In this document: positions 2,985-59,169 of the stretch, piece by piece | Numbering within the stretch: position 1 is the first letter of the stretch | Layout of the letters: each line of letters starts with the position of its first letter | Origin: a virus | DNA: 63,665 nt | Reading direction: 5' to 3' (one strand) | Virus record (IMG/VR): IMGVR_UViG_3300032296_000732 | Location: 1-63,665 of that record | Made by a program: the position numbers and the translations under genes | The notes under the pieces: generated by a model | What the model was told of the DNA's origin: nothing | The model's input: the letters and a program-made list of their open reading frames with translations, nothing else | Databases searched by the model: none

Positions 2985-3172
2985 TCGACGTATACCCAAC
3001 CCGCATAGAGGCCGTAGACGAGGACAATAACGTCCTGTTTATCCTTCATCTGGAGGATGGTGGATGCTGCACTATGCACATCAAAAGTCCGATCCTGTTG
3101 GACCAATCCAACTTAGAAAAAGTCCTGACCGCCATTCGCCGTGGCGTTCAGATTCTTGGAATAGAGGACTGA
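2981..3172 (+). CDS. small hypothetical phage protein
   Basis: A 63-residue protein (MIDVYPTRIEAVDEDNNVLF...) with alternating beta-type residues and a Cys-Cys pair in GGCCTMHI. It overlaps the previous stop by 4 nt and is one base short of the next ATG. No family recognised. Confidence 0.7.
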   Translation: MIDVYPTRIEAVDEDNNVLFILHLEDGGCCTMHIKSPILLDQSNLEKVLTAIRRGVQILGIED

Positions 3173-3593: not shown

Positions 3594-3847
3594 AATGCAA
3601 CTGCCATCCCGACACTCCCTTTCTTTGGAAGCACACTACACGGCCCAGCATCTTCATCAGAGACATCGCCTTTCGCGTTAAGGGTATCGTTGTCACTGAA
3701 GCTGGGTCTTACTTTGCCGAAGAGTCAGATACCCAGAAGAAAACAAAGGACGCAAAAGAGAAAGAGCTTACCGCCTACAAACAGTTTGGCGTTTACCTCA
3801 GAGCAAATCCCAACATCAAACCATCTTTGAACAAGCACGAGAAATGA
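3590..3847 (+). CDS. hypothetical phage protein
   Basis: An 85-residue protein. I chose ATG 3590 (MKCNCHPDTPFLWKH) over an in-frame upstream ATG because it yields the ATGA coupling used throughout this operon. The C-x-C-H start may bind metal. The C-terminal half is Lys-rich (DTQKKTKDAKEKEL) and ends with a helix. Function unknown. Confidence 0.7.
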   Translation: MKCNCHPDTPFLWKHTTRPSIFIRDIAFRVKGIVVTEAGSYFAEESDTQKKTKDAKEKELTAYKQFGVYLRANPNIKPSLNKHEK

Positions 3848-4029: not shown

Positions 4030-4255
4030 GGCCAGTGATGGCACGGTGGTTGCCGCACACTCCAACCAGCTGCGTGACGGCAAAGGCAGGGGTCTCAAGG
4101 CCCATGACTACCGCATAGCAGCTATGTGCTTTCGCTGCCACATGGAGCTTGATCAAGGCACCTCAATGTCCAAGCAAGAACGCCATGACCAGTGGGACGA
4201 AGCGCACCGCAGAACAATTGGCTGGCTTTTTGACAACAACATCTTAAAACTATGA
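3971..4255 (+). CDS. DUF1364-like HNH-type nuclease
   Basis: A 94-residue protein read from TTG 3971, with GAGGAG about 9 nt upstream deciding the start. It has PCQVCEAS..TVVAAHSNQLRDGKGRG...AAMCFRCHMELDQG: a CxxC pair, an AH motif and a CxxCH pair, the layout of DUF1364/NinG-neighbourhood phage proteins thought to be His-Me-finger nucleases acting on recombination intermediates. It ends in ATGA overlap with the following PAPS-reductase-like gene. Confidence 0.7.
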   Translation: MYRNQKLLEAVRASPCQVCEASDGTVVAAHSNQLRDGKGRGLKAHDYRIAAMCFRCHMELDQGTSMSKQERHDQWDEAHRRTIGWLFDNNILKL

Positions 4256-5043
4256 ACCCGTACAAAATCAGTGAACCAACGTGCATCAGCTTTTCGGGCG
4301 GCAGAACGTCTGCTTATATGCTTTACAAGGTGTTGGAAGCCAACGACATGAAGCTGCCAGAAGAAGCGATTGTCTGCTTTGCCAACACGGGGAAAGAGGA
4401 TGAGGCTACGCTGCGGTTTGTGCATGACTGCCAACAAAACTGGTCGGTGCCGATTGTTTGGTTAGAGTATCAGCGTGAAGAGCTTGGCTACAAAGTCGTG
4501 AACTTTGAAACAGCTAGCCGCAACGGTGAGCCTTTTGAGGCGTTGATTAAAAAGAAAAACTACCTGCCAAATCCTATTGCTAGGTTTTGCACCGAAGAAC
4601 TCAAGGTCAAAGCCATCAATAAGTATTTGCGTGATGAGGGGATTGATGCCTCTACGATGGTTGGCATCCGTGCCGATGAACCAAGGCGCATCAGTAAGCT
4701 GCGTGCGCGGGGTCTGCTTGTCCCGCTCTTTGATGCTGGCGTCACGCAAGATGCTGTGCAAACATTCTGGAAAGCGCAGCCATTCAATCTGGGCTTGCCA
4801 TTTCAAAATAACGTCACGCCCTTGGGCAACTGTGATCTGTGTTTTCTCAAAGGCCCGCAGCAAATCATGGGTCTGATCAAAGATAATCCAGATCGTGCGG
4901 TTTGGTGGGCCAAGATGGAGGGGGTTATTGGTGCTACTTTTAGATCAGACCGACCCGGCTACTCTGAGATGCACAAATACCTCAACGCTCAGTCAGATAT
5001 GTTCGACAGCCAAGGCGGCATCGAATGCTTTTGTGGAGAGTAA
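4252..5043 (+). CDS. PAPS-reductase-like adenine nucleotide alpha hydrolase
   Basis: A 263-residue member of the PP-loop (PAPS reductase/DndC-like) superfamily. The nucleotide-binding loop is SGGRTS at residues 15-20, followed by VCFANTGKEDEATLRFVHD, typical of the family's second strand. ARFCTEELKVKAI and GIRADEPRR correspond to the substrate-side motifs. A C-terminal CDLCFLK and a terminal CFCGE could hold an iron-sulfur cluster or zinc. Phage members are often annotated as PAPS reductases; roles in sulfur transfer to DNA or tRNA are equally possible. It is the last gene before the structured non-coding region. Confidence 0.8.
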   Translation: MNPYKISEPTCISFSGGRTSAYMLYKVLEANDMKLPEEAIVCFANTGKEDEATLRFVHDCQQNWSVPIVWLEYQREELGYKVVNFETASRNGEPFEALIKKKNYLPNPIARFCTEELKVKAINKYLRDEGIDASTMVGIRADEPRRISKLRARGLLVPLFDAGVTQDAVQTFWKAQPFNLGLPFQNNVTPLGNCDLCFLKGPQQIMGLIKDNPDRAVWWAKMEGVIGATFRSDRPGYSEMHKYLNAQSDMFDSQGGIECFCGE

Positions 5044-5058
5044 CAGCTGTTACACTGA
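5040..5058 (+). promoter_or_regulatory. 19-bp dyad/promoter-like element, site 1
   Basis: GTAACAGCTGTTACACTGA. The first 14 bases are a perfect palindrome, and the tail TGTTACACT resembles an extended -10 element (TGn then TACACT). The site overlaps the end of the PAPS-reductase-like gene and points into the structured RNA region. An identical 19-mer lies at 28168. Confidence 0.65.
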
Positions 5059-5337
5059 GAAAGTTGGTGGTTAAGCCTTCTCATACACTACGCGGGTGTT
5101 TGTATGAGACTGGTCGGACTGGGGGTTCTCGGTTGCCACCAACAACCAAGACGCATGGGGATTGAGGCACAGGCCCGTAGATTACATTCTGCGAATGCCG
5201 GTCAGGTTAAGAGCGTGAATGCCTGCTCTCTGGCTACAGTCCCCAGCCGTGTTGGTGGTACAACGGGTTAGCGCCGTTGAATGGCCTTTCGGTTGTTGAA
5301 GATACCCACTGCTTTATGTGAGCCACCAATTTTTTTT
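5055..5337 (+). ncRNA. candidate structured non-coding RNA 1 ending in a U-tract
   Basis: No ORF is convincing here, but long complementary arms are. P1: GTTGGTGG 5063-5070 with CCACCAAC 5136-5143. P2 inside it: TCTCATACA 5079-5087 with TGTATGAGA 5101-5109. P3: ACG-CA-TGGGGA 5150-5161 with TCCCCA-GC-CGT 5240-5250. P4: TTGGTGG 5252-5258 with CCACCAA 5323-5329, enclosing P5 CAACGG 5261-5266 with CCGTTG 5274-5279. Eight T residues (5330-5337) follow P4 directly, as in an intrinsic terminator. The 5' boundary is a guess from the promoter-like site at 5040. The P1 and P4 arms have the same sequence and could swap partners. Confidence 0.55.
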
Positions 5338-5345
5338 GAAAGTAG

Positions 5346-5376
5346 TTGACACGGCCCCAAAAGTTGTGTTTATAAT
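5346..5376 (+). promoter_or_regulatory. sigma70-type promoter for structured RNA 2
   Basis: TTGACA at 5346-5351 and TATAAT at 5371-5376, both perfect consensus hexamers. The spacer is 19 bp, slightly long. Start of transcription would be near 5383-5385. No open reading frame follows, only the RNA-like structure. Confidence 0.65.
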
Positions 5377-5382
5377 CATCCC

Positions 5383-5508
5383 AGCTAGGTGTGAGAACCA
5401 AGGCAGGTAAAGAGTCGTTAGTGAAATCCCGACCCCGAATGGGGTAGCGCGTCAGCCCACAAAGCTGAGGTGTTTTCTCACCGGGGTTTCACTAACGGCT
5501 TTTTTTTG
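5383..5508 (+). ncRNA. candidate small structured RNA 2 with its own promoter and terminator
   Basis: A roughly 125-nt transcript is predicted. A 15-bp closing helix pairs 5416-5430 (CGTTAGTGAAATCCC) with 5483-5497 (GGGGTTTCACTAACG), including one G-U pair, and is followed by T-rich 5500-5507. Three small hairpins fill the interior: CCCC/GGGG 5433-5444, TCAGC/GCTGA 5452-5468 and GGTG/CACC 5469-5482, giving a four-way junction. The layout (consensus promoter, short leader, multibranch fold, terminator) is that of a free-standing small RNA. I do not recognise the family. Confidence 0.6.
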
Positions 5509-5583
5509 CCCCAAACGATCTCCACGCCCAGCCGTACTCCGCACGATAGCAAGCACTTGAATCGGTGGCGCGGAAGAAAAGAC

Positions 5584-5677
5584 ACGGCATACTCGACACC
5601 CCGGTTTGCCGTACCAGCCTGTCAGCGAGGGACTGGTGTAGTCGTCAGGACAAGGGTGGAATAACCAAGCCTGACGA
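5584..5677 (+). other. three consecutive hairpins in the non-coding region
   Basis: ACGGCA 5584-5589 pairs with TGCCGT 5607-5612. ACCAG 5613-5617 pairs with CTGGT 5633-5637. TCGTCAGG 5642-5649 pairs with CCTGACGA 5670-5677. They are consecutive and non-overlapping, so they could form a third RNA domain or a replication-origin-type structure ahead of the replication genes. The rest of 5678-5841 shows a GGGGT/ACCCC hairpin (5734-5750) and nothing else clear. Confidence 0.4.
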
Positions 5678-5774
5678 TGAATGAATCGCTGCCTCCGGGG
5701 GACTGGGATCGGGCTTCACGCTTGGTCTGGGTCGGGGTCTAATCCACCCCTTGGGGAAACTAGAGGCGTAAAAT

Positions 5775-5793
5775 GCAACAGATGAATTGTTGC
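5775..5793 (+). promoter_or_regulatory. dyad in the leader of the ParB-like gene
   Basis: GCAACA 5775-5780 and TGTTGC 5788-5793 form an inverted repeat with a 7-nt spacer, about 50 nt before the ParB/HTH gene. It could be an operator (perhaps for that gene's own product) or an mRNA hairpin. No clear -35/-10 pair was found with it. Confidence 0.35.
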
Positions 5794-5841
5794 GAGGTCA
5801 TGTGTGATATAGGTAAACCCTAACAAACAACAGGAGAATTG

Positions 5842-6654
5842 ATGAAAAAACTTAATCTTGCGGTCATTCGGATCGATGGTGACACCCAAGCGAGGGAGGC
5901 ACTCTCTCAGGAAAAGGTCAACGAATACGCTGAGTTGATGAAGGACGGGGCAGTGTTCCCCGCCATCGAGGTGTTCTTTGATGGCAGCGAATACTGGCTT
6001 GCTGATGGATTTCACCGTTACTTTGCTACGAAAGCCAACGGGGTTGTGAGCATTGAGGCGAATGTGCATACGGGTACTCTTGAAGAGGCGCAGCTCTATG
6101 CTTGCGGGGCCAACAAGGGTCGCGGCCTTGAGATGTCTTGGAAAGATATCCGTCACGTTGTCATGCGGATGCTGCGTCACGTTACATGGGGCAAGTGGAC
6201 GAATGCAGAGATTGCCCGCCATGTGGGGTGCTCAAAGATGACTGTCGGGCGCGTTAAGGCATCGATGGAGCAGCCGCAAGAAGAGACAAAAGAAGAGACA
6301 AAGAAAACGTACCGCAACAAGCATGGGCAAGAGAAGACGATTGAGACAAAGAATCTCGGGCGCAAAAAGGCAGAGGAAGAGGTTGATGAGGATCATCGCG
6401 TAGTTGAGCTGACCGATACCGTAAACGACCTGAGTAATGAGAATCAGGCGCTGCGCGACAAGATAGCGATTGGTCAATGGGATGCCAGCGACATTGAGAA
6501 GATCGATGTGCAAGACACCATCGCTGAACTGCGAGAGCAGATTCGGGTGCTGGAGATTGACAACAAGGCGCTGCGTGAGTCACGCGATATGTTTCAGACC
6601 CGGAATGCAGAACTCATGCGAACAGTCAAAGCGTTGCAAAACAAACTGAAATAA
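5842..6654 (+). CDS. ParB-like nuclease-fold/HTH DNA-binding protein with coiled coil
   Basis: A 270-residue protein. Residues about 5-90 form a ParB/sulfiredoxin-type domain (IDGDTQAREALS...FPAIEVFFDGSEYWLADGFHRY; the ADGFHR motif is at 54-59). Residues about 117-140 (KWTNAEIARHVGCSKMTVGRVKAS) are a helix-turn-helix. After a charged linker (QEETKEETKK), a long coiled coil runs from about 190 to the end. ATG 5842 is chosen over the adjacent TTG because AGGAG lies 5 nt upstream. It heads the helicase-primase group, so it may mark a replication origin or act as a regulator. It is a candidate binder of the dyad elements in this genome. Confidence 0.8.
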   Translation: MKKLNLAVIRIDGDTQAREALSQEKVNEYAELMKDGAVFPAIEVFFDGSEYWLADGFHRYFATKANGVVSIEANVHTGTLEEAQLYACGANKGRGLEMSWKDIRHVVMRMLRHVTWGKWTNAEIARHVGCSKMTVGRVKASMEQPQEETKEETKKTYRNKHGQEKTIETKNLGRKKAEEEVDEDHRVVELTDTVNDLSNENQALRDKIAIGQWDASDIEKIDVQDTIAELREQIRVLEIDNKALRESRDMFQTRNAELMRTVKALQNKLK

Positions 6655-49088: not shown

Positions 49089-50420
49089 ATGAGCATCGCT
49101 CAAAGCATCCTAGCTAACCCCGAGAAATACTCGCTGGAACAACTGACGCAGGGCGTTGAAAACGGCGTGATACCGGCGTACATCGGCGTGCCAATCATCC
49201 AAGAGATGTTGCAAAAGCAGTCTCAAGCTGCTGCCATGGGTGGTCAGCAGATGCCGCCCGTCATGGATCAAGTGATGGCTCAGGCTGCACAGGGTCTGGA
49301 GACGCTGCCGTCTAATTTGCCTGAAAGCTACGCTGGTGGCGGCATCATTGCGTTCTCTCCCGGCGGCTCGACTAGTTTGACGCCTGCCGAAGTTGAAGCA
49401 GAACTTGAGCGGGCATCCCGTGAAGCAAATCAAGCGCAGACAGACCCAAGCAGGTTTTCAAATTTACGATCTTTTGTGGATGAGTACAGAAGCCTCATGC
49501 CGGAAAAGGACCCAAGAATAGCTGCCTACGAGGCGTCTATTATGAAGTCGCCTGAGCAGTTGGATGCCCGTAAAAAGCAAGACATGAATTTGGCACTTGC
49601 TCAGTTTGGTTTGAATCTTATGGGGTCAAAGTCACGCACGTTGGCGGGCGGTATTGGCGAGGCAGGCGCTCAGGCCATGCCTTCAGTACAGGCTGCAATG
49701 CTCTCGCGCAGAACAGCAGAGGACGCGGCGCTTAAAGCTCAGGCCGATTTGGCAAGAGGCGAGAGGGCCGAAGGCATTGCCGCACTTCAAGGCGGTTTGG
49801 GTCTTTACGGTAAAGCAGAAGACCGGATATCAGAAGAGCTTAGAGCCAAGCTGCAACGCGAGGCTGCATTGATTACGGGCAATAAGCCGACCGACATGGT
49901 TAACTATGTCAACACTTTTGTCCGTAATGCGCAGGCAGACCCAGACAACAAAAAGTCGGCAGATGCTTTGGCGCTGGAGGGGTATCAGAAGTACTTCACC
50001 GAGGGTCCAAGGCTTCCCGGTCAGGCGCTTGCGGTTCAACAAGGTATCGCAGGTGGGGCGCAGGCCGTTCAAGCGGCAGGACAAGACGTTACTCGTGAAG
50101 GTCAAGCGGCAACACTGAGAAGCAATGCAATCAAACAGTTCAATGATTTGAAACTGACTGATCCTATCAAGCGTGAATATGGCAGACTTGCAGCCGAAGA
50201 CAAAAAGAACAAGGCAGCTGGAAACCCGACCACCCTAGCAGATCAATACAGACAAAGAGAGATTGATAAAATGGCAGCGCCTCCGGCTTCAAGTGCTCCG
50301 GCAGCCGGACAACCTCAACTTCCACCGGGCGTTCCACCGGGGTCAACTTATGGTAAAAAAGTGGCCGGGAAAGGGACGGAAGTTATTTACAACGGTAAAG
50401 TAATTGGATACGCCAATTGA
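49089..50420 (+). CDS. internal virion/ejection-type protein
   Basis: A 443-residue helical protein. Starts MSIAQSILANPEKYSLEQLTQGVENGVIPAYIGVPIIQEM, then SYAGGGIIAFSPGG, a helical centre (NLALAQFGLNLMGSKSRTLAGGIGEAGAQAMPSVQ) and a Pro-rich C-terminus. The motif YAGGGIIAF is common in phages next to ejection proteins. It is followed by the giant gene after 1 nt. Confidence 0.65.
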   Translation: MSIAQSILANPEKYSLEQLTQGVENGVIPAYIGVPIIQEMLQKQSQAAAMGGQQMPPVMDQVMAQAAQGLETLPSNLPESYAGGGIIAFSPGGSTSLTPAEVEAELERASREANQAQTDPSRFSNLRSFVDEYRSLMPEKDPRIAAYEASIMKSPEQLDARKKQDMNLALAQFGLNLMGSKSRTLAGGIGEAGAQAMPSVQAAMLSRRTAEDAALKAQADLARGERAEGIAALQGGLGLYGKAEDRISEELRAKLQREAALITGNKPTDMVNYVNTFVRNAQADPDNKKSADALALEGYQKYFTEGPRLPGQALAVQQGIAGGAQAVQAAGQDVTREGQAATLRSNAIKQFNDLKLTDPIKREYGRLAAEDKKNKAAGNPTTLADQYRQREIDKMAAPPASSAPAAGQPQLPPGVPPGSTYGKKVAGKGTEVIYNGKVIGYAN

Positions 50421-50421
50421 T

Positions 50422-53400
50422 ATGGCTCAAAATTTCACCACCTTCACGCCGTTAGATACCGCTCCTAAATTCACCACTTTCACGCCTTTGGAGTCAGTGG
50501 CACCAAGCGTGGAAGATGAGGAAAGAAAAAAGCGGGAACAGACTCGTCGGCCAGAACAAGCCGCACCTGACATCCCTGCCGTGGGGACGATGGGCAATTT
50601 GTCTGATTTCTTTCCTGAGCCTGATGCTCAACCTCAAGCAGCGCCACAAACAAAAGGCGTGATCCAGCGTGTTGGTGATTTTTTCCGTCCGGAATTCAAA
50701 AGCGTTTTAGAGACGCCCCCGACAGCCGAGCAGCAGCAGCAAAACCGTGACCGTCGCTTATCCTACGGCGCAGGTCCAATCAATCAGCAAACCGAATCTG
50801 CTGCCAGCCTCTTGCGTTCTGGCGAGACTGGGACGCAAAGTCAAACTGTTCGCAGGGTTGCAAAAGCTATGGAAGAGCAGGGTCAACCGACCTTTGCTGA
50901 CATGGCTGCTAGAGCCAAGAGACCCGCAATCGTTCAGGCCGAGAGAGATGCCAAGGCCGAGGAGTTTCGCAGTGCTGGTGAGTGGGCTGCTGATACGCTG
51001 TCAGGTATTAGTCAGGGCACAGTCGGCTTGGTTGAGTTGCCACTGAATATCTTTGCGCCCAGCGGCGGCTTGGCAAAATCCTTGCGCGAAACGCAAAAGG
51101 AATTGCAAGCTCAAGAATCAGATGTGCTTAAGGCGCAACGGGCGCAGCTGCTTGAGCGTGTGCAGAACGAAGATGGCTTCTTTGGTAAGTACTTTGCCAC
51201 TGTTGAAAGCCTGATTACAAATCCTGCGATGGGTCTTTCTGAGGCCGTAAAGCAGGTGCCCAATTTCTTGAGCATCGTTGGTGCGGCCAAGCTGGGTACA
51301 GCCCTTACTGGTGCAGCGGTACACACAGCGAGTCGCGTTAGCCCAACCATAGCTTTGGCGGAGGCTATCAGCGGTAATGCCCTGTTGACCGGGGCGAGAG
51401 CTGCGGGCGCAACAGCTGGCGGTATAAGTGCTGCTACGCTGATGACCAGCGGTGATGCGGCGGGTAATGTCTACCAGACACTGACCGATCCCAAAAAAAC
51501 CCCGATGTCGGTTTGGCGCACAAACCCGGACTTTCAAAGTCTTGTTGCTCAAGGCAAAACACCCAAGCAAGCCATTGAAGAAATCTCAACAGCCAAGGCA
51601 CGTTTAGCTGCGGCCATCGTTGCTCCTTTGGGCGTGCTGGGATTCATGGGCGCTGAAGCGGCGTTTGTCGCGCAGGGCGGAATACGTGCTGCAATGCAGG
51701 CGGCAACACCCAAAGGCGCGGCCAAACTGGTCGGCAAAGAAATAGGACTAGAGCAAATTCAAGAAGGCGGCACGCAAGTAGGCGGTAACGTTGCCTCGCA
51801 GACGGTTAATCCACAGCAGAGTTTGCTTGAGGGCGTACCTGAAGCCATGGCGACTGCTGCTGTTACGTCGGGACCTTTCGCTGGTGCGGCTGTTGCACGG
51901 CAAATGCTGCAAGATCAACAAGCGCAAGTTGATCCTTTTGCCGAGGCTGAAGCCCGCAGAAGGCTTGATGTTCAATCATACGATCCCGGTCTTGTTGACC
52001 CTGCTTCTACTCGTCGGCCAACAGACTTTGATGCAGGCAAGAGACCGGATCAGTTGCTTGATGAGCGAGATGCAAGGATTGAACCCACGCTTGACGATGA
52101 AGCACTTATGAAGCAACCCTCCCCTCCAGTGGTGGGGGATGAGCTGTCCATGCAGGGTGATATACCGGGGATGGCCACTGAGGGCGACATAGCTGAGACT
52201 GATGTATCTCTTGCTCCGGGTGACACGTCAGTTACTCCGCCGGTCAGTGTAACACCTGTTACTCCTGTATCGACGCAAACACCAACCAAAGACAAATGGT
52301 TGAAAGCGATCAACGACCAAAACCGCTTGCAGCCAGAAGGCGGTGTGCAGTTAACAGTCACGCCCGAAGGCAAGCTCAATTTTATGGGCGACCCTAGCGC
52401 AACAAAGCAGGGCAGGGCGCTTGAGGCAACTTTAAACGAGGCCATCAAGGCTGGTGCAACGGTTGAAGAAATAGCCGCGTCCATTAACAGCGCCAAACAG
52501 CCCGCTCCACCAGTAACACCTGTTACTCTACCCCCTCCGACCAAAGCTGCCGAGTCTCTGCCCGAGACGCCAACAGTGCCGCCGGTAACGACACCCAAGC
52601 TGTTTGAGCCGCCAGTTGCTGGTCATGCTGTGGCTGACTTCCCTGTCGTTCAGGTGCCCGTGGCCGACCTTAAATTGTCGGAGGACGTGCCGCAATTCAA
52701 AGCTGGTGCGACTGACAAGGGCGTGGTTGATCCGTTGACCGGCAAATTCACACAAGAAGGCGTAGCGCCAATTGCTGTTTGGCGCAGGCTTGATGGCACG
52801 CTGGAGGTAATTTCTGGCCGTCATCGTTTGGACCTTGCGCAGCGCAGCAAGACCAAGTTCATCAATGCTCAGGTATACGACGAGGCCCAAGGGTTCACTG
52901 CTGTAGATGCCTCTACGCTGGATGCAGAGTTAAACATACGGGACGAGCAAGGAAAGGTAAAGGACTATGTCAACTTCTTCAAAGCAAGCGGTACGGACCG
53001 GGAAACAGCCGAGTCAAAAGGACTTCTGGGACGGGTTAAGGGCAAGCGGGGTTTCGCAATCGCAAATCAAGGATCGGATGCTCTCATTACCGCGCTTAAC
53101 GGAGATCAAGTCGGCGACGAAGCGGCGTACTACATCGCGATAAACGCACCGAATGACGAGAGGCTGCAAGGCGTGGGTCTTCAGTCAATCATGGATGGCA
53201 AGTCTATGAACGCGGCTGTAAACACCATGCAAGCCGTTAAGGCTATGGCGGCAGAGCGGGACACGACAGCCGACATGTTCGGGTTTGACGATAGCCTGAT
53301 CAAAGAAGCACAAGAGATGGCAAAGATTGCCTCCAAGATGCAGCAGTCTATTGCCTCCCGCTTGTCTGCTATTTCTGGTGCAGCAAAGAATCCTGCCATG

Positions 53401-56400
53401 GCCAAGGCAGAGGGCATCGATGTGCGTGATCCCGAGGCGGTCAAGCGGCGCATTGCAGAGCTTAAAGAGGTAAAGGCTGCGCTTGAGAACTGGTCAACAA
53501 ACCCAGAGATCGTGGCCGAGATTCGTGCGCAACGTGGAGTAGCGGCACCGCAGTTTGAGTTGAAGGCCGAAACACCGCAAGAGACTGTCGATAGAGAGAG
53601 CACACAAGACGCAGAGCGCCGTGCTGCTGAAGAGAAGAATCAAGCCGACAACGAAGTTGACTTTTTCCAGCTCCAGCCACAGACGCAAGAAAAGACCGAA
53701 GCGCCAACGGAAGATATGTTTGCTGGCGAGGCGGGGCCGTCTGCTGAATTCACAGCGGCACGTGAGTTGCGTAACCGTGCGAATGATGCCTTTATCAAAG
53801 CGCAAGAGGCGCTTTTAAATGGAGAGATTAGCGGCGAAGACTATGAGGCATCCCGCAAGGTTTACGACAAGGCGGTTGCTGATTTTGAAAAGGCAAGCAA
53901 GAAAGAGCAGGGCCAGACAGAAACGCAGGCCATCAAAGACGAAACGGAGTTTATTGAGGAGAGCACCAAAGACAAGCTGGAAGCTATCGCTCAAGACTTC
54001 ATGGTGGGCGACATGGTCCGCTTTGGAAGCATCTCAGGCACCGTGGTGGGCATTGAGGGCGACTACGTCCGCATGCGTCCTGATACAGCCACATCGCCGA
54101 AAGCATATCAGCGCGTACCCAAGACATCGCTGACCATTGTTGCTCGGCCAGACAACACCAGCATGGTGTCTTTCTCTAAAGAGCAGGACAATAAGTTTGG
54201 TGACGAGGCGGGTCAGCTCAATGCCAACATGGGCAACTTGATCCAGCTGCTTGGCGCAAACATGTACAGCTCTTCACTGGCTGAAGTGACGATCAAAGAG
54301 TTGTTGCAGAACTCTTTCGATGCCGTCAAAGGTGCTGTCGCCGACACAAATGCCAAGGGCGAGAAGATCAAGTCTCTGTACAAGACAGGGAAGATTGAGA
54401 TCACGATTGACCAGCTTAATAGAACCATCACCATCAAAGACAACGCACGTGGCATGACGCCGCAGATTGTTCGTGATGCCTTCTTCACCGTTGCAGGATC
54501 GGACAAGTCTGATCTTCCACCGGGCCAGCGAAGTGGCGGACTTGGTTTGGCAAAGATGGGCTTCATGCTTGGTGCGGAAAACCTGAAGTTAGATACCGTG
54601 CGTGATGGCGTGCGGGTAACAGTGGACACATCGTCTACCAACATTGCCAACAACAACTTCACGATTCAGAAATCGCCCGCTCCAAAAGACGAGCACGGTA
54701 CCACGGTCACCGTGAAGATTCCCGAGTTCTATATTGACCCGAAGAATGGCGATGAGCGACCCATTTATTTCCCGTACTCCGTCAGGTCAGTTAGCGCACT
54801 GAACCAGCCTCTAATTGGGCCGGTAGAAGTGTCGGTAAAGTTAAACCAAGACCCCGAAGTAGTTTTGCCTGTCGGCGTTAATTTTGCGGACAAAAATTAC
54901 TCCAAATTCAAAGCAAACTTTGATTGGGGTTCTGCTGATATTTTCTTTGGCATTGAAAGGAAGCAAGACAGATACAGCATAAATCACAAAGTATTATCTG
55001 CGGGCGTTTACCAATTCAGTCCAGATTTTTCGTTGGATGATGAAAAAATTCCCTATGATATTGTTGTCAATATATCTCCAAATGTAGATGCCCGTCATCC
55101 TGATTATCCTTTTGTTAATAGCCGAGAGAATTTCAAAGACAGGATCAAAAAAGACGTTGAAGCATTGCAGGCGTATCTGGGTCAGATAGCACGCGGGCTT
55201 GAGGCAAAGGACTTGCAAGAGTCGTTTAAGGGCGTAGTGTCTATGCCTCGCATGGAGGCGGGTCAGGACATTGCTGACATCTCAGACAAACTCAAGAAGA
55301 CATTTGACAAGAAAAAACCCGAAGCGCCATCGGTCATAAAAGAGTTGCCCAAAGAAGTGACGGTGACTGCCGACACTGTGACGGACACCAAGACCCAAAA
55401 AGTTTTGGTTGACGTAAAAGGCAAGGAAAAGGAAAAGCAGAAAGACGCATCGTTTAAAGGCAGTGTTACGCCCAAGTCTGCTGACTTCATGCTGGACTTA
55501 AAGCAAGACCCCAAGCTGCCTGCGTTCCACAACAACACCAACGTTGATTACCTTGAGATTGGTCGTCCGTATGGTGAGCCAGAGAAGTTCTTTGCTGAAC
55601 TTGGCACGCTTGTTGTTGAAATGAAAGAAGACTTGGCCAAGAGTGGCATGTATGGATACTCAACGCTTGCACCTGAGAACCTGTTTTTTGCTGGCATATC
55701 GATAGACAAAAAATACGGCGGCGTTCACATCAAGGTGCCGTACAAGGCGGTCTTCATTAACCCGTTCTACAGCTTTGGTGCCCGTACCCTTTTTGGTACG
55801 CGCCAGCAGCAGTTGAACGTGATGATCCACGAGATTGCTCACACGGGTTCTATGGATCATGGTGTTGCGCACAACGCACAGATGATCAAAGTCGAGCAAT
55901 ACCTTGCGGACGAAGGCTTGCTTGACTATTACCGCGACGCTATTTTGGACATTTTGCGTCGGCACGAATCAACATTTACCGCGATGAAAGAAGCCTATGA
56001 CCGATCTTCAACTCAAAACGTTGCAAAGTCTCTTGAGGATTACGAAAAAGGCTCCGCCGCAGCATCGGCTAGAGGAGATACAGGTGGCGCTGGAGACGCG
56101 ACTTCAGCTGTATCTGCAAGAGGGGGACAAGGCCGGGGCGAAGGTGTACCAAGAACTCAAGAAGATGATGCGCAACAAGACCGTGGAGCAGCTGGAGAAA
56201 TTAGCGGGGAACTTGACGCCGACAAAAGGCTAATAAAAAAATACAACCGGCCCGCTACTCCGCAGCTGGACCCAAGTCCGACAAAGACTGTCTTGGTCAA
56301 TGGCGCGAAGGCAAGCAAAGAGTATTTGAAACTTGCTTTCGAAGACCCGCTTGATGCTCTTGGCACGGCAGCGAATGCTGTTGATCGCGGCGTGATGTAC

Positions 56401-59169
56401 GCACGCAACAAGAACGTTTGGTTTGGCTCCGGATTGAACGCGGCTGACTTTACCAAGTACAACGGCCAACTGAAAACAAGTCAGGGGCTGGCGACTGGTT
56501 CTGTTGCGTTGGACAACGCCATTCGCGGGGGTCAGATTTCTACCGAAGTCATCTTCCAAGGCGGCATCAGGTTTGATCCCAAGAGCCTAAACTTTGTGGC
56601 CACCAAGAAGGCCAAGGGCATGCGCGGTGTGTATGAGGCCGAGGCTGCACTCAAGAAGAGGCTGGGAGACCAGCTGGGCACCGACATCATTCAGGGCTAC
56701 CTTGAGGCCAAGCGTAGCCGCAGCATTCAGAACGAGTTTTTTGAACGCCAAGCAAAATTGGAAGTATTGCAAGCGGAGTACGAGCAGCTGCTTGAAAGCG
56801 GCGCGTCTGAGAAAGATATTAAGATTGCAAGAGACGATTTGGCTGACGCTAGAAAAGAGTTTAAAGACATTGAGATTGTGTTCAACAAGATCAATATGTC
56901 TGACCCTGAGATTGACGAGTTCATTGCCCGAGATCAAGAGCATCCAGAGCTGCGCAAGATCATGGACAACTGGTCTGCGGTCAACAAGAACATGCTCAAT
57001 TTCTGGCGGCAGGTTGGCTTGCTTTCCACGAAACGATACGATGCCCTGTCGAACATCAAAGACTACGTGCCGTGGCAGCGGATCATGAATGACGAGACAG
57101 ACATTCATTCTCCTGCGCAAACGACCAACAGAACGATGACCAACATCGGGCTTGAGCGCGTCTTTAAAAAGGGCACGCCCACTGTTATCACTGACTTCAA
57201 AGCCGAGAAGGATCAGCAGGTTTTCAAGATTCAGCCTGCCAAGGTTTTGGTTGTTGAGGTCAACGGCAAGACGATCAACCCATCGGACATCCAAGCAACC
57301 CCAGAGGGTGAGGTGCGTTTGAACGTGCCAATTGCTGAGGGTGATTTGGTTGTGTTCACGGCCAGCAGAGAGATTGAGAACATCATCGATAACATGACGC
57401 GCAACGTCATGCGTATGACGATGAACGGCTTGCGTCAGTACGCCGCACAAAGGATCGTTAACGAGTACGCCACGCGAGATGCCAAGGGCAAGGTAATGAC
57501 CTTCCCCAAGGTTGATCTTGAAAAGGGCCGGTTCAATTTCATCGTGAACGGCAGGCGAGTGGTTGTGGAGATTCAGGACCCGCTGATTGCAGAATCCATC
57601 ATTGGCATGGAGACGCTGGGTATTGCCATGTACCCGATCTTGGCAGCAGCAGCCAACATCACCCGTCGCTCAATCACTTTGTCTGGTGTGTTCCAGATCA
57701 AGCAGGTCTTCAAGGATGCACCTACTGCGGCTTTCGTTACTGGCGTTAAGAATCCTTTGGCCCTGATCGGCGGTGTGTACAAGGGCTTCCTCACAAGCCT
57801 GACCAACACAGACCCGACCATTCAGATTCTGAAGTCTGCGGGTATCGGTGGATTCCAAAGCGCAGCCAGAACCCCAGAGGCAGAGGTCAAGCGCCGCATC
57901 GGTATCATGAACCGCAACGTGTTTGACTTCATCATCAAGGGGCTGGACCACATCGGCGACTCCTCCGATATGGCGCAGCGGGTTGCCGTCTACAAACGTG
58001 TGCTGGCCGAGACTGGTAATGAGGCGCAGGCTTTGTATCAGGCTGCAAACGTGATCAACTTTTTGCACCACGGCTCAGGCCAAGCGGCTCAGTTTGTCGT
58101 GAAGACTGTGCCATTTGCTGGGGCGTATGCAAACTCCATCGACGTGCTTGCACAGGCCCTTGTTGGCGGCGGTCTTCGCGGCAACACCAGAGCAAAGAAT
58201 CTTCAGCGGCTTGCGGTAACCGGCTCACTGCTGGCTACCACAACACTGCTGTACTGCATGATGGTGGGTGATGATGAAGAGTACAACCAGCTTGATGACC
58301 AGACCAAGCTGCGCAACTACATGATCCCCGGCACCAAGATCATGTTGCCGATGAACACCAGTGCGGCGTTTTTCTTCAAGGCCATTCCAGAGATGATCTA
58401 CAACAAGATCGTCAAGGAAGGGACTGACAACGCCGTGGATGAGCGTCGCTTGCGGACTGCCTTGAAAGAGGCTGCAATTGATCTTCTGCTTGGCCCCACT
58501 CCCGTGCCGTCTGCGGTCAGGCCAATTATTGAAATTGGTTTGAACAGGGACTTCTTCACGGGTCGTTCGGTGGTGCCAGAGGCTTTGGCCAAATTGGATG
58601 CTGCCGAGCGATACACAGCAGAGACCAGCGAGTTGGGCAAGATGCTGTCGGGCTTAACCGGGACTGATGAGAAGCGCATCCTTGATCCTATGGAGGCAGA
58701 TCATATTGTTCGCGGCATCTTTGGCACAACGGGTGCGATGGTGCAGTGGTTCTCAAACAGTATTGGTGCCGCAGCTGGTGAGCGGATTGCGCCCACCGAG
58801 AAGCAGCAGCCACTCACTGGCCCGTTCTTGCGTGCAGATGTACCGCGCCGCAACGAAGACTTGTTCTACGACTTTAAGAAACTTGTGGACAACAAGTACG
58901 GCACTTATTCAAAGATGATCGAGCGCGAAGACTACGAAGCTGCCGACAAGTATTTGGAGAAGCACGGTGATATCGTCAAGTCCTACGAGTACACCAATGA
59001 GCTGGATACGGAACTCAAAGAGATCAACGCGATGATTCGTTACTACGGTGAATCAAAAGAGACAACCCTGACCCCCAAGGAGCGTCGCGCAGAGGTGATT
59101 GATTTGCAGAGACTCAAGCAAGAAATCCTTGACTCGGTCATAGAGTTCCGCAAAGAGGCTGGGCTATAA
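50422..59169 (+). CDS. giant polyvalent protein with ParB-like, GHKL ATPase and metallopeptidase-type domains
   Basis: 2,915 residues from ATG 50422. Residues about 740-925 are ParB-like (VPVADLKL...VISGRHRLDLAQR, then NIRDEQG, GSDALITAL). An SH3-like segment (VGDMVRFGSISGTVVGIEGDYVRM) begins at about 1195. Residues about 1265-1560 hold a GHKL (Hsp90/MutL-type) ATPase: KELLQNSFDAV (from 1293), DNARGM (1340) and GGLGLAKMG (1372). HEIAH at 1803-1807, followed by SMDHGVAH, is a zinc-peptidase motif. The last 500 residues (ITLSGVFQIKQVFKDAP, FLHHGSGQ, VKTVPFAGAYANS) match the LPD38-type tail of polyvalent proteins. Such proteins are thought to enter the host with the DNA and counter defences. The hydrophobic segment VTGSLLATTTLLYCMMV may insert in membranes. 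Confidence 0.8.
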   Translation: MAQNFTTFTPLDTAPKFTTFTPLESVAPSVEDEERKKREQTRRPEQAAPDIPAVGTMGNLSDFFPEPDAQPQAAPQTKGVIQRVGDFFRPEFKSVLETPPTAEQQQQNRDRRLSYGAGPINQQTESAASLLRSGETGTQSQTVRRVAKAMEEQGQPTFADMAARAKRPAIVQAERDAKAEEFRSAGEWAADTLSGISQGTVGLVELPLNIFAPSGGLAKSLRETQKELQAQESDVLKAQRAQLLERVQNEDGFFGKYFATVESLITNPAMGLSEAVKQVPNFLSIVGAAKLGTALTGAAVHTASRVSPTIALAEAISGNALLTGARAAGATAGGISAATLMTSGDAAGNVYQTLTDPKKTPMSVWRTNPDFQSLVAQGKTPKQAIEEISTAKARLAAAIVAPLGVLGFMGAEAAFVAQGGIRAAMQAATPKGAAKLVGKEIGLEQIQEGGTQVGGNVASQTVNPQQSLLEGVPEAMATAAVTSGPFAGAAVARQMLQDQQAQVDPFAEAEARRRLDVQSYDPGLVDPASTRRPTDFDAGKRPDQLLDERDARIEPTLDDEALMKQPSPPVVGDELSMQGDIPGMATEGDIAETDVSLAPGDTSVTPPVSVTPVTPVSTQTPTKDKWLKAINDQNRLQPEGGVQLTVTPEGKLNFMGDPSATKQGRALEATLNEAIKAGATVEEIAASINSAKQPAPPVTPVTLPPPTKAAESLPETPTVPPVTTPKLFEPPVAGHAVADFPVVQVPVADLKLSEDVPQFKAGATDKGVVDPLTGKFTQEGVAPIAVWRRLDGTLEVISGRHRLDLAQRSKTKFINAQVYDEAQGFTAVDASTLDAELNIRDEQGKVKDYVNFFKASGTDRETAESKGLLGRVKGKRGFAIANQGSDALITALNGDQVGDEAAYYIAINAPNDERLQGVGLQSIMDGKSMNAAVNTMQAVKAMAAERDTTADMFGFDDSLIKEAQEMAKIASKMQQSIASRLSAISGAAKNPAMAKAEGIDVRDPEAVKRRIAELKEVKAALENWSTNPEIVAEIRAQRGVAAPQFELKAETPQETVDRESTQDAERRAAEEKNQADNEVDFFQLQPQTQEKTEAPTEDMFAGEAGPSAEFTAARELRNRANDAFIKAQEALLNGEISGEDYEASRKVYDKAVADFEKASKKEQGQTETQAIKDETEFIEESTKDKLEAIAQDFMVGDMVRFGSISGTVVGIEGDYVRMRPDTATSPKAYQRVPKTSLTIVARPDNTSMVSFSKEQDNKFGDEAGQLNANMGNLIQLLGANMYSSSLAEVTIKELLQNSFDAVKGAVADTNAKGEKIKSLYKTGKIEITIDQLNRTITIKDNARGMTPQIVRDAFFTVAGSDKSDLPPGQRSGGLGLAKMGFMLGAENLKLDTVRDGVRVTVDTSSTNIANNNFTIQKSPAPKDEHGTTVTVKIPEFYIDPKNGDERPIYFPYSVRSVSALNQPLIGPVEVSVKLNQDPEVVLPVGVNFADKNYSKFKANFDWGSADIFFGIERKQDRYSINHKVLSAGVYQFSPDFSLDDEKIPYDIVVNISPNVDARHPDYPFVNSRENFKDRIKKDVEALQAYLGQIARGLEAKDLQESFKGVVSMPRMEAGQDIADISDKLKKTFDKKKPEAPSVIKELPKEVTVTADTVTDTKTQKVLVDVKGKEKEKQKDASFKGSVTPKSADFMLDLKQDPKLPAFHNNTNVDYLEIGRPYGEPEKFFAELGTLVVEMKEDLAKSGMYGYSTLAPENLFFAGISIDKKYGGVHIKVPYKAVFINPFYSFGARTLFGTRQQQLNVMIHEIAHTGSMDHGVAHNAQMIKVEQYLADEGLLDYYRDAILDILRRHESTFTAMKEAYDRSSTQNVAKSLEDYEKGSAAASARGDTGGAGDATSAVSARGGQGRGEGVPRTQEDDAQQDRGAAGEISGELDADKRLIKKYNRPATPQLDPSPTKTVLVNGAKASKEYLKLAFEDPLDALGTAANAVDRGVMYARNKNVWFGSGLNAADFTKYNGQLKTSQGLATGSVALDNAIRGGQISTEVIFQGGIRFDPKSLNFVATKKAKGMRGVYEAEAALKKRLGDQLGTDIIQGYLEAKRSRSIQNEFFERQAKLEVLQAEYEQLLESGASEKDIKIARDDLADARKEFKDIEIVFNKINMSDPEIDEFIARDQEHPELRKIMDNWSAVNKNMLNFWRQVGLLSTKRYDALSNIKDYVPWQRIMNDETDIHSPAQTTNRTMTNIGLERVFKKGTPTVITDFKAEKDQQVFKIQPAKVLVVEVNGKTINPSDIQATPEGEVRLNVPIAEGDLVVFTASREIENIIDNMTRNVMRMTMNGLRQYAAQRIVNEYATRDAKGKVMTFPKVDLEKGRFNFIVNGRRVVVEIQDPLIAESIIGMETLGIAMYPILAAAANITRRSITLSGVFQIKQVFKDAPTAAFVTGVKNPLALIGGVYKGFLTSLTNTDPTIQILKSAGIGGFQSAARTPEAEVKRRIGIMNRNVFDFIIKGLDHIGDSSDMAQRVAVYKRVLAETGNEAQALYQAANVINFLHHGSGQAAQFVVKTVPFAGAYANSIDVLAQALVGGGLRGNTRAKNLQRLAVTGSLLATTTLLYCMMVGDDEEYNQLDDQTKLRNYMIPGTKIMLPMNTSAAFFFKAIPEMIYNKIVKEGTDNAVDERRLRTALKEAAIDLLLGPTPVPSAVRPIIEIGLNRDFFTGRSVVPEALAKLDAAERYTAETSELGKMLSGLTGTDEKRILDPMEADHIVRGIFGTTGAMVQWFSNSIGAAAGERIAPTEKQQPLTGPFLRADVPRRNEDLFYDFKKLVDNKYGTYSKMIEREDYEAADKYLEKHGDIVKSYEYTNELDTELKEINAMIRYYGESKETTLTPKERRAEVIDLQRLKQEILDSVIEFRKEAGL
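52244..52262 (-). promoter_or_regulatory. 19-bp dyad/promoter-like element, site 5 (inside the giant gene, reverse)
   Basis: Reverse complement of GTAACAGGTGTTACACTGA, identical to sites 2 and 3, here within coding sequence. A related palindrome without the tail (AGTAACACCTGTTACT) lies at 52512-52527. Confidence 0.55.
55997..56233 (+). CDS. possible overprinted small helical protein inside the giant gene
   Basis: A 78-residue ORF in another frame: MTDLQLKTLQSLLRITKKAPPQHRLEEIQVALETR..., then VYQELKKMMRNKTVEQLEKLAGNL. It looks more protein-like than the giant frame at the same place, which is Gly/Ala/Ser/Asp/Arg low-complexity (SAAASARGDTGGAGDATSA). A weak GAAG precedes the ATG. It could be a true overlapping gene in a dispensable linker, or chance. 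Confidence 0.35.
   Translation: MTDLQLKTLQSLLRITKKAPPQHRLEEIQVALETRLQLYLQEGDKAGAKVYQELKKMMRNKTVEQLEKLAGNLTPTKG

Follow-up and report, generated by a model that had tools for sequence, protein, structure and literature searches.

Comparative analysis indicates that RNA-B, a structured small RNA of about 125 nt (5383–5507), represents a real, previously uncatalogued family of structured RNAs of freshwater phages. Members were found in more than 100 related environmental phage contigs, a lower bound, by pattern, covariance-model and protein-anchored searches of IMG/VR. The window, meaning the whole stretch of DNA analyzed, comprises the 63,665 bases of an IMG/VR virus record; the promoter, RNA-B and the neighboring units RNA-A and RNA-C lie on its + strand. 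RNA-B is located in about 800 noncoding bases between a PAPS-reductase-like gene (4252–5043) and a ParB-like gene (5839–6654). The latter is followed by helicase and then primase genes, in agreement with the position ahead of the replication genes given in the initial annotation. A structured unit, RNA-A (5044–5338), precedes RNA-B in this stretch, and a third conserved noncoding element, RNA-C (5519 to ~5720), lies behind it. The terminase genes are at 13.6–17.2 kb. The host is probably betaproteobacterial, as judged from the name of Betaproteobacteria-1 RNA (RF02932) and from Acidovorax phage AP1, in which ParB-like, helicase and primase genes occur in this order and a copy of RF02932 is present. 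The PAPS-reductase-like protein matched SspD in PADLOC (1.9e-15), and its close relatives are common in freshwater phage contigs. Elsewhere in the window, positions 50404–59169 form one open reading frame of 2921 aa, unusually long for a 64-kb phage.

RNA-B is preceded by a sigma-70-type promoter (5346–5376), consisting of TTGACA (5346–5351), a 19-nt spacer and TATAAT (5371–5376). The –10 hexamer predicts a start at about 5383–5384, and the end was predicted from a U-tract of eight T residues (5500–5507). This promoter was absent from a promoter scan limited to spacers of 16–18 nt, because its 19-nt spacer is above the consensus of 17. A promoter match of at least 9/12 was present just upstream of RNA-B in 84% of 56 distinct homologues, compared with 6.5% in shuffled sequence. 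The homologue spacers were mostly 18–19 nt, and in L194 the promoter falls within the final part of the preceding gene. In the comparison with shuffled sequences that the initial annotation had proposed, RNA-B showed a minimum free energy of –61.6 kcal/mol against –34.9 ± 3.6 kcal/mol for the shuffles (z = –7.4; 0/200 shuffles). The hexamers, U-tract and coordinates first reported for this unit were thus borne out, whereas details of the fold were revised. The closing helix P2 (5414–5431/5482–5499) comprises 18 bp rather than 15 bp and can be extended to a 23-nt inverted repeat with 87% complementarity. Instead of three hairpins it encloses two, P3 (5432–5445; ACCCC-GAAT-GGGGT) and the size-variable P4 (5446–5474). 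The third, P1 (5384–5404), sits in the leader, with inner pairs at 5388–5389/5398–5399 and an outer stem that is weak in the window. The key element overlooked in the first reading is a pseudoknot between GTGAGAA in the P1 loop (5391–5397) and TTCTCAC (5475–5481), the latter abutting P2. The 3' strand of P2 and the U-tract form a predicted intrinsic terminator (5482–5507). RNA-B therefore shows the general characteristics of an intrinsic-terminator sRNA, namely its own promoter, a stable fold and a G+C-rich stem with a U-tract. The sole ORF of at least 60 aa touching RNA-B (5470–5664) overlaps the terminator, and a coding role for it was unsupported.

The exact core GACCCCGAATGGGGTAGCG matched 11 viral contigs, with the same layout in each. 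A covariance model was built from nine members, followed by looser patterns. Further members were found through neighboring proteins and not by pattern (L016, L060, L072, L078, L120–L122, L162, L164 and L166), indicating that the family reaches sequences sharing little with the window. Many members were retrieved with a search pattern in which CGACCCC, GGGGTAG and CACCGGGG were fixed, so the invariance of these motifs is partly ascertainment; members obtained through proteins or a P2 pattern are free of this bias. When 27 records were searched whole, RNA-B occupied a single place in each of the 24 matching records, the second listing per record being the same place on the opposite strand. Owing to the palindromic P2, model R1 gives reverse-strand matches as well, and these were discarded. 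We aligned 56 distinct members and counted the named structure: 92.5% of cells were paired and 29/39 base pairs showed compensatory changes, with 0/500 shuffles as good, and sliding the partners reduced pairing to 34–51%. In P1, all 8 pairs had changes on both sides, with 65–79% of cells paired. The most distant members lack P4 and have an altered P3, and they keep P1, P2 and the pseudoknot. The helices are thus conserved among homologues; their loss was one of the outcomes by which, according to the initial annotation, the claim would have been refuted, and the claim withstood this test. Promoter, fold and terminator, together with deep covariation in more than 100 phage contigs, support its description of a self-contained sRNA gene about 125 nt long. 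The genomic position of RNA-B is variable, near early/replication genes or tRNA arrays (the latter in L331, L178 and L231) and not near terminase genes, which makes a packaging role, one of the functions initially suggested, less likely. The occurrence in so many environmental phage contigs, apparently in single copy, points to a function worth keeping.

RNA-B had no match in Rfam 15, which gave 0 matches in the window, and a permissive Rfam search of 4900–5900 returned only mir-191, whose 18.4 bits fell short of the cut-off of 54. No description of RNA-B was found in the literature searched. A BLAST search with several RNA-B subtypes against 50,697 phage records recovered only MW202545 (ctpbd312, a Manatee Spring record). 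A pattern scan of genome contigs gave 7 matches, none of which was recovered by model R1; L238, the one inspected by eye, has another fold. Among 369 genomes of that MAG's class there were 0 matches, a weak negative since none of these genomes is a known carrier of RNA-B. Matches in the related Streptomyces phages Blueeyedbeauty and Faust (L002 and L003, at about position 1500) comprised only a conserved 35-nt gene-boundary hairpin resembling P3, with the RNA-B fold absent, and were judged to be chance.

The pseudoknot was evaluated in 93 parsed members, eleven others being left out because the T-run was wrongly assigned in parsing. The P1 loop paired with the strand abutting P2 in 93/93 members, by at least 6 Watson-Crick pairs and through 31 distinct sequence pairs, compared with 5.5% in shuffled-leader controls. 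Examples include GTGAGAA/TTCTCAC, GTGGAAG/CTTCCAC, GTAGGAA/TTCCTAC and GTAGCGGA/TCCGCTAC. In the alignment, 94.9% of pseudoknot cells were paired and 4/6 pairs showed compensatory change. The 3' strand of the pseudoknot was immediately next to the 3' strand of P2 in 92/93 members. P2 measured 18–19 bp in 83/93 members (17–21 bp overall), while the region it encloses varied from 20 to 51 nt. This constancy indicates a ruler-like constraint, which would be unnecessary for a plain terminator. Because the pseudoknot strands and the P2 strands do not overlap, both can form together, and no switch by alternative pairing is visible. A riboswitch or attenuator acting by alternative pairing was accordingly not supported, the pseudoknot and terminator strands being adjacent and unshared in 92/93 members. 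A ribozyme, prompted by the loop-linker knot, was considered but found no Rfam match. The P1–P2 linker is 8–19 nt; by helix-length arithmetic, a pseudoknot coaxial on a P2 of 18–20 bp would be out of its reach, so either a sharp bend back along P2 or pairing between two molecules would be required. Pairing between molecules would make RNA-B an antiparallel dimer or a larger assembly held by loop-strand contacts. Two P2 helices in antiparallel arrangement would agree geometrically with the short linker and the fixed length of P2, and kissing loops mediate the assembly of ROOL and GOLLD (PMC12286853). Covariation is compatible with both arrangements and does not distinguish them. A sharply bent intramolecular knot is also possible, and we consider an intermolecular assembly very improbable.

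Our preferred reading, which we regard as an even call, is that RNA-B is the first representative of a new family of stand-alone phage sRNAs acting in trans by shape. RNA-B would be transcribed from its own promoter near early/replication genes. The pseudoknot links the loop of the 5' leader to the terminator helix at its inner end and, together with the 3' terminator stem, may yield a compact RNA that resists nucleases and has neither end free. Such an RNA could bind a host or phage protein or RNP through its three-dimensional shape, possibly as a decoy. Action by shape rather than by antisense pairing is suggested by the conservation of the junction and pseudoknot against variable unpaired loops. 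The terminator would also cap transcription into RNA-C; since no promoter of its own was seen for RNA-C, read-through would be its only source.

In nearly all members only a few bases separate RNA-B from RNA-C, which mostly starts no more than about 12 nt behind it, and no recognizable promoter was found between the two. The RNA-C of the window was unrecognized by Rfam; nhmmer matched it in 79 places, and blastn of the flanks and an alignment likewise showed its conservation. In L004, L122, L209, L216, L264 and L331, the element behind RNA-B is RF02932, which has the same orientation and starts a few bases past the U-tract; most other loci carry relatives that Rfam does not recognize. By single linkage, in which clusters may join via shared modules, 10 members fell in the group of RF02932 and its close relatives, 88/102 in one other chain, and 98/102 in downstream clusters of more than two. 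The folding z-scores of RNA-C were near zero, as were those of true RF02932 copies. A replication origin at RNA-C was rejected, with no clear GC skew turn there. These results give the orphan Betaproteobacteria-1 RNA a gene context, in which it is often the downstream half of a cassette of two RNAs.

The tight linkage of RNA-B and RNA-C counts against a stand-alone sRNA and suggests a role in cis. The main rival is a cis-acting attenuator, in which the leader's pseudoknot, or a bound ligand or protein, would decide between stopping and reading on into RNA-C and the genes beyond. The short, promoterless interval before RNA-C agrees with this, as does the finding that, where RNA-B is missing, an RNA-C-type element follows other units (B2 or B3, below) or a promoter-like sequence with a terminator-less hairpin. 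However, the pseudoknot shares no strand with the terminator, so that no mutually exclusive pairing is visible, and the constancy of P2 length favors coexistence of the knot with P2; competition between the knot and a full P2 rests on geometric inference. Moreover, in AP1 the RF02932 RNA follows a primase gene without RNA-B. We consider an attenuator possible but rather unlikely. The constant juxtaposition and the modular exchange of both halves would also fit RNA-B as the 5' domain of a single bipartite B–C RNA, with the T-run as a linker and not an end, a layout comparable to that of large phage RNAs such as GOLLD, in which a conserved 3' part is joined to a variable 5' part. Against this, the parsed members have behind P2 the T-run that an intrinsic terminator requires, and RNA-C is also found without RNA-B, which leaves a bipartite RNA improbable.

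The tandem arrangement of two such units described in the initial annotation holds only in a loose sense and is otherwise inaccurate: an upstream structured unit ending in a T-run does exist, but RNA-A is a different element with a larger fold than RNA-B (z = –3.5), and RNA-C is a different element as well. Its 3' module (5225–5335) recurs in other members of the RNA-B family by nhmmer. This module, GGGTTAGCGCC...CCCACTGCTTTATGTGAGC, lies upstream of RNA-B in the window and was also seen at two places in L202, where it occurs between RNA-B and RNA-C as well, and by eye near a tRNA-Ala in Acidovorax phage ACF1 (L333, ~2990–3060). The module is probably another uncatalogued RNA.

In phages without RNA-B, the RNA-C-type element was found behind other promoter-structured RNA-terminator units. 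Type B2 (L018 at ~3600–3750, L021, L022, L017 and L020) consists of a promoter, a structured RNA of about 150 nt and a terminator, followed by an RNA-C-type element, and type B3 (L019 at 5136–5264, L055, L056, L023 and L059) is a promoter-pseudoknot-terminator unit; L055 had no Rfam match. In both types the terminator loop pairs with a strand of the leader, and by eye the member sequences differ fully yet remain complementary, as in the B3 pairs GGACTAGG/CCTAGTCC and GGCGATTACC/GGTAATCGCC. In L024, L033, L035, L041 and L052, a promoter-like sequence leads to a hairpin without a terminator and then to the RNA-C-type element. B2 and B3 thus share with RNA-B the order of promoter, leader strand paired into the terminator loop, terminator and RNA-C-type element. 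Unlike RNA-B, they have a pseudoknot strand that does not abut the terminator strand; they show no recognizable sequence similarity to it, and model R1 misses both. Because these various units precede RNA-C, the slot between promoter and RNA-C is conserved and its content swapped. A broader proposal, which we hold to be doubtful, is that RNA-B, B2 and B3, although unrelated, serve interchangeably as terminators gated by a pseudoknot and controlling a second noncoding RNA, with gate and gated RNA swapped between genomes. If true, freshwater phages would carry a modular circuit in which RNA controls RNA.

Taken as a family, RNA-B adds a compact, covariation-supported RNA that is absent from Rfam 15. 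The layout of promoter, pseudoknotted terminator and second RNA is kept while both parts are exchanged, so that control of noncoding RNA output by pseudoknotted terminators in phages becomes a testable idea.

RNA-B was also compared with known RNA classes. A type III toxin-antitoxin RNA (ToxI-like) was rejected, since direct repeats are absent in 5040–5840 and the downstream genes are ParB-like, helicase and primase. As for an RNA anti-CRISPR or repeat decoy, RNA-B was matched by no Rfam CRISPR direct-repeat family. RF02932 occurs in the same phages and is likewise a candidate sRNA, but its fold and sequence differ from those of RNA-B, and a covariance-model match between the two was never obtained. 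The phi29 pRNA is a small phage RNA with loop contacts; RNA-B differs from it in having no Rfam match and in adjoining replication genes or tRNAs, not packaging genes. ROOL and GOLLD are phage-borne structured RNAs often located near tRNA islands (PMC12286853). They form cages of 600–800+ nt with many helices, whereas RNA-B, at about 125 nt, matches neither in Rfam; it resembles them as a phage RNA that adjoins tRNA arrays (L331, L178 and L231).
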